39,503 nucleotides of DNA, taken from NCBI GenBank assembly GCA_021739625.1, contig JAIPBJ010000018.1, positions 1-39,503 on the forward strand, in the 5' to 3' direction. A program made the translations under genes and the position numbers. Source of the DNA: Flavobacteriales bacterium. Its GTDB lineage: Bacteria > Bacteroidota > Bacteroidia > UBA10329. Shown one piece after another: positions 16,534 through 22,176 of the stretch (the first letter of the stretch is position 1; each line of letters starts with the position of its first letter). The notes beneath the pieces are model-generated. The model had not been told where the DNA came from. It saw only the letters and a list, made by a program, of their open reading frames with translations, and ran no database searches.

Positions 16534-16612
16534 TTATTATGGGAACACAATGCTTCCGTACGCGCAACAGGCCTCGACCCGGGATATGAACCTCCGCTTC
16601 CTACCGGTCCTT

Positions 16613-16630
16613 GGCCCCGATGGGGCCTTT
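16613..16630. other. Hairpin at the head of the 42-bp repeat array
   Basis: GGCCCC (16613-16618) and GGGGCC (16622-16627) pair across a 3-base loop and are followed by TTT. It is terminator-like on the plus strand but the T-run is too short for a firm call. It directly precedes a degenerate copy of the 42-bp repeat (16631-16652). Confidence 0.45.
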
Positions 16631-16652
16631 CGGCAGGGGCATCACCACGTTT

Positions 16653-16963
16653 GGCAACCTGCCTTCCAGAGCTGGAAGGGGCATCACTGCTTCCAGCAAC
16701 CTGCCTTCCAGAGCTGGAAGGGGCATCACTGCTTCCGGCAACCTGCCTTCCAGAGCTGGAAGGGGCATCACTGCTTCCGGCAACCTGCCTTCCAGAGCTG
16801 GAAGGGGCATCACTGCTTCCGGTGACCTGCCTTCCAGAGCTGGAAGGGGCATCACTGCTTCCGGCAACCTGCCTTCCAGTGCTGGAAGGGGCATCCCTGC
16901 ATCCGGTGACCTGCCTTCCAGAGCTGGAAGGGGCATCCCCGCGTCCGGTGACCTGCCTTCCAG
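16653..16963. repeat. 42-bp tandem repeat array with an invariant palindrome (7.4 copies)
   Basis: Seven full 42-bp units start at 16653, 16695, 16737, 16779, 16821, 16863 and 16905, with a half unit from 16947. A degenerate half unit precedes at 16631. Each full unit carries the arms CCTTCCAG and CTGGAAGG around a 2-base centre (AG, or TG in unit 6). All unit-to-unit changes fall outside the arms, for example GGCAACC or GGTGACC at the left edge and ATCACTGCTTCC, ATCCCTGCATCC or ATCCCCGCGTCC at the right. Since 42 is a multiple of three, open frames run through the array on both strands, but they consist of the repeat only and lack gene features. Confidence 0.9.
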
Positions 16964-17089
16964 TCTGAAAATCAATCATTTGAATACTTCGGATCCCTTT
17001 TTAACCCTTTTACCCTAAAACCATGGTACTTACCCGCAGATTGCCCATCAGTAACATCGGCTAATCGCACCCGTGAAGGAGTTTCCCCC

Positions 17090-17128
17090 AAGCCCCGCCA
17101 CCTCTGGGTTGGCGGGGCTTCTGTTTTT
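17090..17128 (+). terminator. Strong rho-independent terminator without an upstream gene
   Basis: AAGCCCCGCCA (17090-17100) and TGGCGGGGCTT (17110-17120) form a perfect 11-bp stem with a 9-base loop, followed by CTGTTTTT. No plus-strand gene lies upstream within more than 3 kb, so it ends either an unseen short transcript from the repeat region or shields the peptidase promoter from read-through. Confidence 0.8.
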
Positions 17129-17138
17129 GGTATCATTG
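17109..17138 (+). promoter_or_regulatory. Promoter of the M36 peptidase gene overlapping the terminator
   Basis: TTG at 17109-17111, 19 bases of spacer, and TATCATTG at 17131-17138 (seven of eight bases of the spaced consensus kept) fit the Bacteroidota promoter layout. The implied start of transcription is near 17144, about 28 bases before ATG 17172. The -33 element lies within the loop and right arm of the terminator hairpin. Confidence 0.5.
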
Positions 17139-17171
17139 CACCTGCCGCCTCCTTCCACCTTCCGCACCCGC

Positions 17172-20100
17172 ATGATCCCTTCACTGCACATCAAAGCCTT
17201 GGCCCTGCCGGTGCTGTCCTGCTGCGTTGCGCTGTTGGGGCCAACGGCCGCCAGGGCGCAAGCAGATGCCCGGTCTGAGGTGGGCCGCCTCGCAGCCGGT
17301 CACTTCGCAGCATCGGCCACGCCCATGCAGTTCATTGTGAACGATGCCTACACCGACACCGACCTCGGCATCACCCATGGATATGTTCAGCAGGTTTACG
17401 GAGGGGTTCCTGTTCACAATGCCATTGCGGTGGTGGCGCTGAGGAACGGGCAGTTGGCACACATCGCAGAGGACTTTGTAAGGGACATCGCCTCGAAGGC
17501 CAACGCCAGCACACCTTCCATCAGCGCAGCACAGGCGGTGGTCAGTGCATTGCAACATCTCAAGAGGCCCATTCCTGATGATCTGGTGCAGATGGGGAGC
17601 AATGCGCAGAACGGCCATCTGCGGTTCTCCCTCCCCGAGGTGTCGGCCCGGCCTGTCGAGGTGGGAAAGGTCTATCTGCCCGTAGGCGATGAGGTGCGCC
17701 TTGCCTGGAATGTGAGCATCGAGATGAAGGACGTGGCGCACTGGTGGAACATCCGCGTGGATGCGCATTCGGGCCAATTCATCGACCGTGATGACTACAC
17801 GGCAAGCTGCAGCCTGCATCCTGCCACGTATCGCGACCGAACGCGGAAAGAGGGGAGGGCACAGGGCCTGCATCCCCATCCGGCCCCGCTTCCCATGCCA
17901 GTGGCCACTTCGTCCTACCGGGTGTTCCCGCTGCCTGTGGAGGCCCCGACCTTTGGCACACGCAGTCTGATGGAAGACCCCGCAGACCCCATCGCATCGC
18001 CATTCGGCTGGCACGACACCAACGGGGCCGATGGGGCAGAATACACCATTGCCCGGGGCAACAACACCCATGCCTATGAGGATGCCGACAATGATAACCT
18101 TCCCGGATACTCGCCCGATGGAGGCGGGGCACTGGCATTCGATTTCGCCTTGCTGCCCGATGTGGAGCCGATGGACAATCGGGATGCCGCCCTCACCAAT
18201 CTCTTCTATCAGACCAACGCCATCCACGATGTGCTCTATGCACACGGGTTCAACGAGGCTGCCGGCAACTTCCAGCAGAACAACTATGGGAGGGGCGGAT
18301 CGGGCGGTGACCACGTGTGGGCCGAGGGCTTTGACGGATCGGGCACCAACAACGCCAATTTCAGCACCCCGCCTGACGGTTCCGAACCACGGATGCAGAT
18401 GTATCTCTGGAATTCTGAGCCCGTGGGATGCAGCACGCTCGGCATCGTGTCGGACGGGTTCACCGGGACGATGGAAGTAGGCACGGCCGAGTTCACGGCC
18501 GTTGGAACTGTGACCGCACCCCTCATCCTTGCTGACGATGAGGTAGGAACAGGTTCTGACGCCTGCACCGACATACTGAACAATGTGGCGGGAAAGATCG
18601 TCCTCATAGACCGTGGAGGATGCAATTTCATATCGAAGGCGCAGCGTGCAGAAGCGGCAGGGGCCGTTGGCCTCATCATAGCCAACAATGTTGCAGGTGG
18701 GCCCACAGGCATGGCAGGCTCGCCCCAAGTGGGCATCCCGGTGCTGTCCGTATCGCTGGCAGATGGAGGTCTGCTCAGATCGGAACTGCTCCTTGGAACG
18801 GTGGAGGCCTCCTTGGTCACCTGTGCCCGCGACACCTTCGATTCCAATTTCGACAATGGCATCATAGCCCATGAATACGGCCACGGACTGTCGAACAGGT
18901 TGACCGGTGGCCCATCGCAGTCCAGCTGCCTTGCCAACGAGGAGCAGGGTGGCGAAGGCTGGAGCGATTGGCTGGCGCTCATGCTCACCATCACTCCCGC
19001 AGACCAAGGGGCCGATGCCAGAGGCATGGGGTCCTATGTGGCCAACGACCCCAACGAAGGGGGCGGGATCAGAACCTTTCCCTATAGCACCGACATGGCC
19101 GTGAACCCGCTCACCTACGGAGACCTTGACCCCGTTATGGGCGTGCATGCCCGGGGCGAGATATGGTGCGCTGCCATCTGGGACATGTCGTGGCTCCTGA
19201 TGGATGCGCACGGATTCAACAGCAGTCCGGCCGATGTGGCGGCCGGCAACAACATCGCCATCAGGCTCGTGCTCGAAGGGTTGAAACTGCAGCCGTGCAG
19301 CCCCGGCTACCTCGATGCCCGCGATGCCATTCTGGCGGCCGATGAGCTCCTTTTCGACAAGGCGCACAGACCCCTCATCTGGGAGGCGTTTGCCCGAAGG
19401 GGCATGGGATGCAGCGCAGCGCAGGGCAGTGCCAACGCGGTGGGCGATGAGACCGAGGCCTTCGACATGCCCACCCTTTTTTATCGCGATCAGGATGAGG
19501 ACGGCCATGGCCACCTGTGGTCAACCGAATTGGCCTGCACCCAGCCGATCGGATTCGTGACCAATTCAGTTGACTGTGACGATACGGATCCATCGGTCGG
19601 CCCCGACTGTCTGCAATGGATCGGCACTTTGAGTGAAGATTGGGATGCCCCGGGCAACTGGAGCAATGGAACAGTGCCCACCTCATCGGACGATGTGAGA
19701 ATTTCGGCAGTGCCGTCCAATCAGCCCGTGATAGGCGGAGCGTTGGCAGAATGCCTCGGTCTGGAGGTGCAGAGCGGGGCCTTGCTCACCATCGCGCCCG
19801 GCCATGCCCTCACAGCCAATGGCGACCTCACCAGCGCGGGCACGGTGCATGTCATGGCCGATGAGCTTGGCATCGGATCGCTCATTACCCTCGGCAGTGT
19901 CACCGGTGCAGGCACATTCCAGGCCGATCAGTATCTCACAGGTGCGGGCGGGGCCACACCCAGCGGGGTGTTCTACTACGTGAGCAGCGCTGTGGCAGGG
20001 GCCAATGCGGCCAGCTATGGTCTCGCCAGCGGCAACAGGCTCTGGAGCGCAAGCGAGTCCACGCAGACCTACCCACAGATGACCGATGGCGCCACGGTGC

Positions 20101-21188
20101 TCAATGCAGGTCAGGGCTATGTGGTGCGCATGGGCGGCAGCGGCAGTCGCGAGCTAAGCGGCACCGCCTTCAACACCGGCAACGTGACCCTCAATGGCCT
20201 CACCCGCACAGGGGCAGGGGCCAACGCAGGCTACAATCTGGTGGGCAACCCTTATCCGTCCTCCGTGAGCTGGGATGCGGCCATCAAGGGCAATCTGGAG
20301 GACGACATCTGGTTCCGCACCCATACCGATGCGCTGCTCATGAACTTCGATGTGTATAATGCCGTCAGCGGCATCGGTACGGACAACAACCGTTTCAACC
20401 AGGATGTGACAGGCATCGTCCCACCGGGCCAGGCATTCTGGGTGCGGGTACTGGACGGAGAGACCAGCGGTTCGCTCGGCTTCGATAACGCCATGCGCAG
20501 CCACGGCATGCAGAGCGCACTCTACCGTCTGGCGGCCGAAGAGGGCACGGTGCGCATGCGCATCACCGGGGCCACAGGCAGCGATGTGACCATCGTGCAT
20601 TTCACCACGGAGGCCGAGAACGGCTATGATGCGTTCGACAGTCGCAAGATGTTCGGGGCGGCCACCCTGCCGCAGTTGCACACCACCGCAGCCAATGAGG
20701 CGATGGCCATCAACGGCCTCTTCAGCACCGCGACCAACCCCATCGTTGACCTCGCGGTGCGCATTCCCGCAACTGGCGATTACATCCTCACCGCACACAG
20801 CATCACGTTGAATGAGGAGGTATGGCTTGAGGACCGCCTGCTCAACGCATTCGAGCATCTGAATCTGAACCCCGTGTATGCCTTCACTGCCGATGCCGGC
20901 AACATGGACGACCGCTTTGCGCTGCACTTCGGGGCTGTGGCGGTCGGGGTGGAGGAGAACACTTCAATTTCACACGTGTTCGCATCCGATGGAGTGGTCA
21001 ACATCATTGTGGGCAACGACCTCGCCAGTGGCACCATCGCAATCCTGGACATGGCGGGCCGCATGGTCCGGACAGCATCCATCAGTGGCAACCGCACGGT
21101 CATGGCCACCGATCTTGCCACGGGCATCTACCTCGTTCGTATAGAAACTGTGAATGGTTCGGAGACACACAGAATTCTGTTGCGGTAG
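17172..21188 (+). CDS. M36 fungalysin-type metallopeptidase with PA domain and T9SS type A sorting domain
   Basis: 1338 residues from ATG 17172, which gives a standard signal peptide (MIPSLHIKALALPVLSCCVA); a start at 17073 would place the terminator hairpin inside the gene. Order of parts: FTP-like propeptide (about 40-200), peptidase with zinc motif HEYGH (His567, Glu568, His571) and third ligand Glu595 in GGEGWSDW, interrupted by a protease-associated insert (about 440-540, with AGKIVLIDRGGCNF and AAGAVGLIIANN), then a calcium-type DQDEDGHG stretch, a long beta-rich region (about 815-1250) and a C-terminal type A sorting domain (GTIAILDMAGRMV, LATGIYLVRI, HRILLR). It should be a secreted, self-processed zinc protease for extracellular protein degradation. 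All catalytic residues are kept. A 49-residue peptide gene follows, with its own promoter. Confidence 0.93.
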   Translation: MIPSLHIKALALPVLSCCVALLGPTAARAQADARSEVGRLAAGHFAASATPMQFIVNDAYTDTDLGITHGYVQQVYGGVPVHNAIAVVALRNGQLAHIAEDFVRDIASKANASTPSISAAQAVVSALQHLKRPIPDDLVQMGSNAQNGHLRFSLPEVSARPVEVGKVYLPVGDEVRLAWNVSIEMKDVAHWWNIRVDAHSGQFIDRDDYTASCSLHPATYRDRTRKEGRAQGLHPHPAPLPMPVATSSYRVFPLPVEAPTFGTRSLMEDPADPIASPFGWHDTNGADGAEYTIARGNNTHAYEDADNDNLPGYSPDGGGALAFDFALLPDVEPMDNRDAALTNLFYQTNAIHDVLYAHGFNEAAGNFQQNNYGRGGSGGDHVWAEGFDGSGTNNANFSTPPDGSEPRMQMYLWNSEPVGCSTLGIVSDGFTGTMEVGTAEFTAVGTVTAPLILADDEVGTGSDACTDILNNVAGKIVLIDRGGCNFISKAQRAEAAGAVGLIIANNVAGGPTGMAGSPQVGIPVLSVSLADGGLLRSELLLGTVEASLVTCARDTFDSNFDNGIIAHEYGHGLSNRLTGGPSQSSCLANEEQGGEGWSDWLALMLTITPADQGADARGMGSYVANDPNEGGGIRTFPYSTDMAVNPLTYGDLDPVMGVHARGEIWCAAIWDMSWLLMDAHGFNSSPADVAAGNNIAIRLVLEGLKLQPCSPGYLDARDAILAADELLFDKAHRPLIWEAFARRGMGCSAAQGSANAVGDETEAFDMPTLFYRDQDEDGHGHLWSTELACTQPIGFVTNSVDCDDTDPSVGPDCLQWIGTLSEDWDAPGNWSNGTVPTSSDDVRISAVPSNQPVIGGALAECLGLEVQSGALLTIAPGHALTANGDLTSAGTVHVMADELGIGSLITLGSVTGAGTFQADQYLTGAGGATPSGVFYYVSSAVAGANAASYGLASGNRLWSASESTQTYPQMTDGATVLNAGQGYVVRMGGSGSRELSGTAFNTGNVTLNGLTRTGAGANAGYNLVGNPYPSSVSWDAAIKGNLEDDIWFRTHTDALLMNFDVYNAVSGIGTDNNRFNQDVTGIVPPGQAFWVRVLDGETSGSLGFDNAMRSHGMQSALYRLAAEEGTVRMRITGATGSDVTIVHFTTEAENGYDAFDSRKMFGAATLPQLHTTAANEAMAINGLFSTATNPIVDLAVRIPATGDYILTAHSITLNEEVWLEDRLLNAFEHLNLNPVYAFTADAGNMDDRFALHFGAVAVGVEENTSISHVFASDGVVNIIVGNDLASGTIAILDMAGRMVRTASISGNRTVMATDLATGIYLVRIETVNGSETHRILLR

Positions 21189-21214
21189 TGTCCGGAATTC
21201 CATAATGACAATTT

Positions 21215-21222
21215 ATATTTGA
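21215..21222 (+). promoter_or_regulatory. -7 promoter element of the 49-residue peptide gene
   Basis: TATATTTG is a full match to TAnnTTTG, 28 bases after the peptidase stop and 28 bases before ATG 21251, in a short A+T-rich stretch. It supports separate expression of the peptide. No -33 TTG at ideal spacing. Confidence 0.6.
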
Positions 21223-21250
21223 CCACTTCAACAAAACATTCACAAAGACC

Positions 21251-21400
21251 ATGAACAAGAAAAAGAACTACACCCGCCCGGCTATCCGCAAAGTGACCAT
21301 CGACAAGGAGATCAGCATGGTGATGATGTCACCGTTCGGCCCTGGTGGCGATCCAGAGGGAAGCATGAAACTGATGAATCCGATGAAGTGGTTGAGGTAG
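21251..21400 (+). CDS. 49-residue peptide gene of unknown function
   Basis: An ATG at 21251 opens a 49-codon frame ending in TAG at 21398-21400. The product begins MNKKKNYTRPAIRKVTIDKE, continues ISMVMMSPFGPGGDPEG and ends NPMKWLR. There is no signal peptide or membrane segment; the N-terminus is very basic, the middle holds a hydrophobic ISMVMM block and the C-terminal half is Gly/Pro rich. Evidence for a real gene is the perfect promoter element upstream, the codon use like that of its neighbours and the hairpin after it. From memory, many Bacteroidota carry short hypothetical proteins of the pattern YxxPxIxxVxID-EISxVMxS with a Pro/Gly tail, but I can name no family. It could be a precursor of a processed peptide, or a small regulator. 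Confidence 0.6.
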   Translation: MNKKKNYTRPAIRKVTIDKEISMVMMSPFGPGGDPEGSMKLMNPMKWLR

Positions 21401-21427
21401 ATCCGATTTTCTTGTGAATTGACACTG

Positions 21428-21452
21428 ACGGCCCGATGAGGGCCGTTGGTGT
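21428..21452 (+). terminator. Possible terminator after the peptide gene
   Basis: ACGGCCC (21428-21434) and GGGCCGT (21440-21446) form a 7-bp stem with loop GATGA, 27 bases after the peptide stop. The following TGGTGTTC is T-poor, so termination may be inefficient. Confidence 0.45.
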
Positions 21453-22054: not shown

Positions 22055-22145
22055 ACAGACCGCAGAACACAGACCATAGACCAAAGACCACAGACCATTG
22101 ACCACAGACCATCGTCTATCGACTATCGACCGTGGACTATCGACT
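22055..22145. repeat. Heptamer array, 7-bp period (ACAGACC/ATCGACT type)
   Basis: Thirteen consecutive 7-mers run in phase from 22055: ACAGACC, GCAGAAC, ACAGACC, ATAGACC, AAAGACC, ACAGACC, ATTGACC, ACAGACC, ATCGTCT, ATCGACT, ATCGACC, GTGGACT, ATCGACT. The core is ANNGACY. The array fills the space between the SRPBCC stop and the thiolase promoter. No gene is in it. Confidence 0.85.
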
Positions 22146-22176
22146 GAATTCTGAAGTCCCGCCCTTTTCCCTTCCG

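Follow-up and report, generated by a model that had tools for sequence, protein, structure and literature searches.

The described systems closest to the locus analysed here are the linear polyphosphorylated peptides (LPPs), RiPPs of the Bacillota that were published in May 2026 with the components LppA, K, B, S, D and N (PMC13381572). Their precursors share the consensus YxxPxVLxHQxIxFETxxS. LppB is the RRE, LppK puts several phosphates on Ser3 of the core, and LppS, a SpI-like protease, cuts after T-1; LppN had no visible effect in the authors' host (PMC13381572). A change of Asp70 in LppB weakened binding, and a change of Asn33 nearly abolished it (PMC13381572). The role of LPPs is given as unknown in this source, whose discussion restricts them to Bacillota and whose network is described as predominantly Bacillota.

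A second group comprises the lasso peptides paeninodin, pseudomycoidin and Bsf, which likewise have an RRE and an HprK-like kinase with the His-Lys-Asp-Asp motif named for lasso kinases (PMC9266682, PMC10368454). They also have a nucleotidyltransferase, which in pseudomycoidin (PsmN) acts on the phosphate (PMC9266682). The Bsf leader contains YxxPxL. Paeninodins have a WxxP leader and, in the RRE, a Gly where the RREs described below have Asn.

A 49-codon gene and its relatives

The window, by which we mean the whole 39,503-nucleotide stretch analysed, is contig C20 of a 3.69 Mb Flavobacteriales genome in 179 contigs (G000). A preliminary description of it had proposed a 49-residue peptide gene with its own promoter and a 3' hairpin, lying between an M36 peptidase gene and an SRPBCC gene. 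The open reading frame is there as described, with an ATG start and 49 codons at 21251-21400 of the forward strand, which also carries the other features of this gene and its upstream neighbour discussed below. Its product is MNKKKNYTRPAIRKVTIDKEISMVMMSPFGPGGDPEGSMKLMNPMKWLR (49 residues), which, judged by sequence alone, has no signal peptide. Pfam and NCBIfam searches with the peptide alone gave zero matches, as did an Rfam scan of the whole window at gathering cut-offs. The upstream gene (17073-21188; start codon putative) does encode an M36 peptidase, scoring 447.3 bits against PF02128 and 830.7 bits against NF038113, the T9SS-dependent M36 metallopeptidase family (below the cut-off of 885), and it bears in addition a C-terminal T9SS type A sorting domain (TIGR04183, 38 bits; cut-off 23). 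The downstream gene matches Polyketide_cyc slightly below the cut-off (22.6 versus 23.4 bits), consistent with an SRPBCC neighbour. Repeats are found at two places in this part of the window. Long in-frame repeats, open on both strands and with units such as GRQVAGSSDAPSSS, lie just 5' of the M36 gene (16600-16960), and intergenic runs of GACCACAGACCATAGACC-like repeats lie at 22055-22150; comparable runs are seen before or after other peptide copies in G000 and G005.

The window genome has four copies of the peptide gene, on four contigs. Across the nine genomes of the genus, which also make up our family- and order-level sets, 17 copies without a stop codon were found in five genomes (one copy is cut by a contig end), plus one broken copy; neither peptide nor kinase set was detected in G008, a member of the same genus that is 98% complete. 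Among the 17 copies pN is lower than pS in 136/136 pairs, the median dN/dS is 0.136 (77 pairs with finite dS), and third codon positions carry approximately 2.6 times as many differences as the other positions. The frame is thus conserved with the synonymous bias on which the preliminary description had made its proposal depend. Because it is multi-copy and under purifying selection, the 49-codon ORF is a real gene, far beyond chance.

Searched against 395 genomes of the class, a profile built from these 17 copies (A1) matched additional peptides in four other families, in six genomes altogether (G099, G189, G219, G251, G268 and G371), among them four copies in tandem in G189. Peptides in G424, G433, G468, G499 and G541 come from a second sample, 160 genomes of the family to which G371 belongs. 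The usable total is 39 copies in 16 genomes, leaving out G004f (L029), whose frame is broken and which is also absent from the motif and selection counts, and a third G371 copy that a contig end truncates. Weaker candidates were rejected. In the first single-sequence search, weak matches (E 0.009-0.7) in ten genomes of the class fell within longer ORFs, of 412-439 residues in nine cases and 209 in the tenth. The profile matched none of them, and they were dropped as chance, as was a G006 match (L020, E 0.74). Two weak A1 matches, in G215 and G246 (E 0.008-0.009, within ORFs of 721 and 210 residues), were gone with profile A3 and were dropped, as were A3 matches in G103 (E 0.008) and G047 (E 0.003). 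Among named genomes eight peptide loci were found, seven under Flavobacteriales MAG titles and one under the title Chryseobacterium gleum. The latter (CAMDOM010000081.1, L051) has the peptide in the same position as contig C81 of G006, in the window's genus, and its title is probably wrong.

The motif counts come from copies anchored on [ILV][DS]x[ED][IF]. Asp at Tyr+11 and Glu at Tyr+13 are nearly constant, but conservation at Tyr+10, +11, +13 and +14 is partly built in because the anchor pattern covers these positions, and nothing rests on those counts. The positions Tyr, +3, +5, +15 and +20 are independent of the anchor. Among the 39 copies, 37 have YxxPx[VIL]; position by position, Tyr is found in 38, Pro at +3 in 38, V/I/L at +5 in all 39 and Ser/Thr at +20 in 38. 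The residue at Tyr+15 is small in every copy (S 32, T 5, A 1, N 1). In the window copy the first motif is Y7xxP10xI12 (21269-21286), a proposed RRE-docking motif of the leader, by conservation and by the meaning given to it in PMC13381572. The preliminary description had noticed this YxxPxI head, which is indeed present, and had missed its connection with a known RRE-docking motif. A conserved leader end follows, D18xE20-I-S22 (21302-21316), in which Ser22 stands at Tyr+15, the offset of T-1 in LPPs, and may mark the cleavage site. If the peptide is cut after Ser22, the predicted core is M23-R49 (21317-21397; 27 residues), and it contains Ser27 (Tyr+20; 21329-21331), the proposed phosphorylation site. 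The C-terminal part of the peptide is variable between genera, and the four G189 peptides stop 0-2 residues past the conserved Ser/Thr.

Partner genes and their co-occurrence with the peptide

A compact set of four genes, encoding a PqqD-type RRE, an HprK-related kinase, an archaeal-type signal-peptidase-like protease and an NTP_transf_5 protein, adjoins the peptides in full in G005, G099 and G189. In G000 the set lies on contig C148 (L119:9170-12022), so the window copy, on C20, is unlinked to it. A search led by NTP_transf_5 found the compact set, besides G000, also in G002, G004 and G371; the protease was not found at the sets of G219 and G433. NTP_transf_5 alone is not specific: it is present in 39 of the 395 class genomes, and several of the 20 regions that we opened showed it in other settings. 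The densest locus seen is in G499 (L199), where three peptide genes are interleaved with S26, NTP_transf_5, kinase and PqqD genes and a fourth stands at the contig edge. In G251, a PqqD gene precedes one peptide by 25 bp, the kinase, the protease and an ABC exporter are elsewhere on the same contig, and NTP_transf_5 is on another contig. For 8 of the 12 genomes with both peptide and kinase, the distance between a peptide and a set gene is 10 kb or less (G005, G099, G189, G219, G251 [PqqD], G433, G499 and G541); the two are unlinked in G000, G004 and G371, and G424 is ambiguous owing to contig ends.

The sequences of the set genes were examined against family models and against the described systems. 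The RRE matches PF05402 with 49-64 bits in 4/4 scanned and the LppB structure 9x8z at 3e-5, and the residues aligned with N33 and D70 of LppB are invariant in 8/8 RREs (N40 and D77 of the first row, with a spacing of 37 in both). In the kinase, His, Lys and Asp-Asp are invariant in 8/8; its matches to the Pfam and NCBIfam HprK models are below cut-off only. TIGR02228 is the best family for all seven proteases scanned (three above the cut-off of 51.85, four below), and their candidate catalytic Ser/His/Asp are invariant in 7/7. PF14907 is above cut-off in the five NTP_transf_5 proteins scanned. As to further partners, the preliminary description had pointed to an ABC peptidase or transporter or a radical SAM enzyme at homologous loci. 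An ABC exporter adjoins the G251 kinase, and inspection of the other sets by eye recognised none; neither a radical SAM enzyme nor an ABC peptidase was noticed in looking over the homologous loci.

Some more distant loci resemble the set. At L130 (G143) and L133 (G047), genes that by eye resemble capsule genes surround those for PqqD, an S26-like protease, a distant HprK-like kinase and NTP_transf_5 or a relative, and a weak YxxP peptide (E 0.003) occurs elsewhere in G047 (MKKKYSSPTVSVVKIH...). The peptide and set may thus have a Bacteroidales branch. L125, L128 and L135, in other Bacteroidia, combine NTP_transf_5 with PqqD, kinase-like genes and genes that by eye resemble the asparagine-synthetase type, and are possible lasso clusters.

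Do the peptide and the kinase occur in the same genomes? Kinases were counted with a profile (A2) at an E-value cut-off of 1e-40, placed after seeing a gap between 2e-48 and 7e-21, and genomes whose kinases are more distant, six in all (G173, G256, G047, G201, G143 and G377), were excluded from the count. The Fisher p-values, which are indicative only because the genomes share ancestry, some of the loci behind A2 had been located by way of the peptide and the cut-off was set post hoc, are 5e-13 for the class sample (n=395; kinase 10, peptide 11, both 8), 9e-9 for the 160-genome sample (kinase 7, peptide 8, both 6) and 1e-6 for the latter minus the genomes used in the profiles (n=157; kinase 5, peptide 5, both 4). 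In the class sample, peptide and kinase are found in the same five families. The two do not go together in six genomes: G002 (83% complete) and G244 (kinase cut by a contig end) have the kinase but no detected peptide, and G006, G007, G268 and G468 have the peptide but not the kinase. Because these last four are 95-99% complete, enzyme loss or another enzyme set is possible in them.

Position behind type IX secretion cargo genes

The peptide genes are commonly found next to genes for T9SS cargo. Three of the 39 copies are too close to contig ends to be judged (G004e, one in G499, one in G541); 28 of the 36 evaluable copies stand directly behind a same-strand gene that ends in a T9SS type A sorting domain. 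Among these 28 upstream proteins, 19/19 scanned match TIGR04183; the other nine were assessed with a home-made model (seven) or, being truncated at contig ends, by eye (two). The distance from cargo to peptide gene, where measured, ranges from a 4-nt overlap to 287 nt and is 62 nt in the window. The cargoes are diverse (M36 protease, beta-propeller, DUF285 and others); the T9SS-dependent M36 metallopeptidase (NF038113) is a neighbour only, and the cargo at other copies is mostly different. Eight copies are not behind cargo. Seven of them are within or beside the enzyme set (four in G189, G251a and two in G499), and G004d sits behind what appears by eye to be a decayed cargo gene. Sorting-domain matches in the window genome number at least 150, and copy G000b adjoins at least one close cargo paralogue that has no peptide. 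Because cargo genes are common and such a paralogue exists, the peptide marks a small subset of the cargo. A background count of sorting domains gave 16/162 ORFs, but the model behind it was derived from these cargoes, so the count does not serve as a fair control.

The sequence TATATTTG (21214-21221), which starts one base to the left of the position given in the preliminary description, fits TAnnTTTG, which we take to be the Bacteroidota -7 consensus. The match alone means little because the window contains nine exact TANNTTTG sites against 7.4 expected from shuffling. A TANNTTTG-type site within 150 nt upstream is present at 1 of 16 same-genus copies (0.3 expected), namely the window's own. 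Given this count and the near-chance number of sites in the window, a promoter of its own finds no support as a general property of the peptide gene. The hairpin after the gene (21422-21452) is real, with 13 pairs and a z of -4.67 for the folded 73-nt stretch, though it lacks a T run; it is a possible terminator, where a terminator scan called none and a laxer home-made scan accepted a weak one. The home-made scan, run with no shuffle control, found a hairpin with a T run after 4 of the 15 other same-genus copies. Hairpins of this kind would fit a transcription unit that starts with the cargo gene and ends with the peptide gene.

Proposed pathway and alternative explanations

We consider it likely, by comparison with the described systems, that the gene encodes an LPP-like RiPP precursor and that its copies act in trans. 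Like LPPs, the system has a discrete PqqD-type RRE, an HprK-like kinase, an archaeal SpI/SipW-like protease and an NTP transferase, together with a YxxPxV leader, a small residue at Tyr+15 (the LppS cut site), a conserved Ser a few residues on and a variable C-terminus. In contrast to LPPs, it is found in Bacteroidota, and its precursor genes are scattered in trans, mostly behind T9SS-cargo genes. Where the LPP leader reads LxHQxIxFET, the leader here goes on ..(I/L)DxE(I/F)S, and the conserved Ser is at Tyr+20 rather than +18. An MsbA-like transporter belongs to the LPP cluster, whereas here an ABC exporter was seen near the G251 set only. The system thus appears to work like LPP, yet we do not file it as a member because the full precursor motif is absent (the part after YxxPx[VIL] differs) and a transporter was recognised beside one set only. 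Several observations count against even an LPP-like reading: the four peptide genomes without the kinase, the kinase without the peptide in G002 and G244, the unlinked window copy, a set that is not always whole, and a leader that departs from the LPP consensus beyond Tyr+5 and has its conserved Ser two residues further from Tyr.

The position of 28 of the 36 copies directly behind a cargo gene, and the four genomes with peptides and no kinase, would also be expected if the peptide worked in the cytoplasm as a small regulator of the neighbouring T9SS cargo or as its partner, in expression or secretion, with the PqqD/kinase set as a mere frequent companion. We regard this as unlikely. The combination of YxxPx[VIL] with matching RRE contacts argues against it, as do the co-occurrence of peptide and set in five families, the copies in or beside the enzyme set without cargo (four in G189, two in G499 and one in G251) and the G189 peptides, which are hardly more than leader. 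The preliminary description had left the choice between a small intracellular regulator and the precursor of a processed or exported peptide; the latter fits the evidence, and nothing specific to the former was found. Copies at the enzyme set without cargo are also at odds with a functionless passenger spread by copying or recombination of the 3' ends of cargo genes. Such a passenger would explain that the cargo C-termini of a genome resemble one another, that several copies are close to contig ends and that one copy (G004f) is decayed; however, the arrangement recurs in other families, and the strong purifying selection makes this explanation very improbable.

The RRE motif, the kinase and the nucleotidyltransferase are shared with lasso peptides, and the peptide might accordingly be taken for the precursor of a phosphorylated and cyclised lasso peptide like paeninodin or Bsf. 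However, leader peptidase B2 (PF13471) is found in 0/9 genus genomes, with a signal-peptidase-like protease in its place; no cyclase-like (PF00733-type) gene was seen by eye at the compact sets, the loci inspected for it; and the Gly1/Asp8 ring pattern is, by eye, absent from the predicted core. By the features tested, the peptide is not a lasso peptide, and we give the lasso explanation an extremely small chance. As for a chance ORF, shortness and the lack of Pfam and NCBIfam matches would be in its favor, but it is refuted by the selection test and by the existence of a multi-copy family with a conserved motif, and its probability is negligible.

In an LPP-like pathway, the PqqD protein would grip Tyr7 and Pro10 of the leader and present the peptide, as we infer from Bacillota LPPs and pseudomycoidin. 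By analogy, the HprK-related kinase would phosphorylate Ser27, the NTP_transf_5 protein may add a sugar or nucleotide to the phosphate on Ser27, as PsmN acts in pseudomycoidin, and the signal-peptidase-like protease would remove the leader near Ser22 to give a core of approximately 27 residues. The cut is proposed after Ser22 because the LPP leader ends at Tyr+15, which is Ser22 here and is small in 39/39 copies. A single set of these genes would act in trans on several precursors. Because most precursor genes are directly behind T9SS-cargo genes, peptide and cargo are probably made together, and our guess is that the modified peptide may act with the cargo at the cell surface. A bolder version, which we put forward tentatively and with considerable doubt, is an LPP-like pathway dedicated to the T9SS: scattered two-gene units of cargo and precursor would be served by a central kinase, nucleotidyltransferase, RRE and protease set, and the resulting phosphate-linked core, possibly bearing a sugar or nucleotide, would be joined to the cargo or delivered with it at the cell surface.

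Titles and abstracts in the open-licence literature yielded no account of the peptide and set system or of its link with the T9SS, which does not establish its absence in print. In the main text of PMC13381572, type IX secretion does not appear, nor does any word starting with Bacteroid or Flavobacter, and passages of a survey of Bacteroidales RiPPs (PMC10352776) and of a survey of RREs (PMC12710340) do not mention the system. What is new here is the occurrence in Bacteroidota, the dispersed precursors and the location of 28 of 36 copies directly behind a T9SS-cargo gene. The peptide supplies a probable substrate for the Bacteroidota set of PqqD, HprK-like, NTP_transf_5 and SpI-like proteins, and a family of RiPPs that had been described as restricted to Bacillota would extend to Bacteroidota. 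Short precursors distant from their enzymes would be missed by mining confined to gene clusters. Peptide modification would be tied to type IX secretion, whose cargo load is large in the window genome, and the recurrent genetic link to secreted proteins makes the role of LPPs testable.
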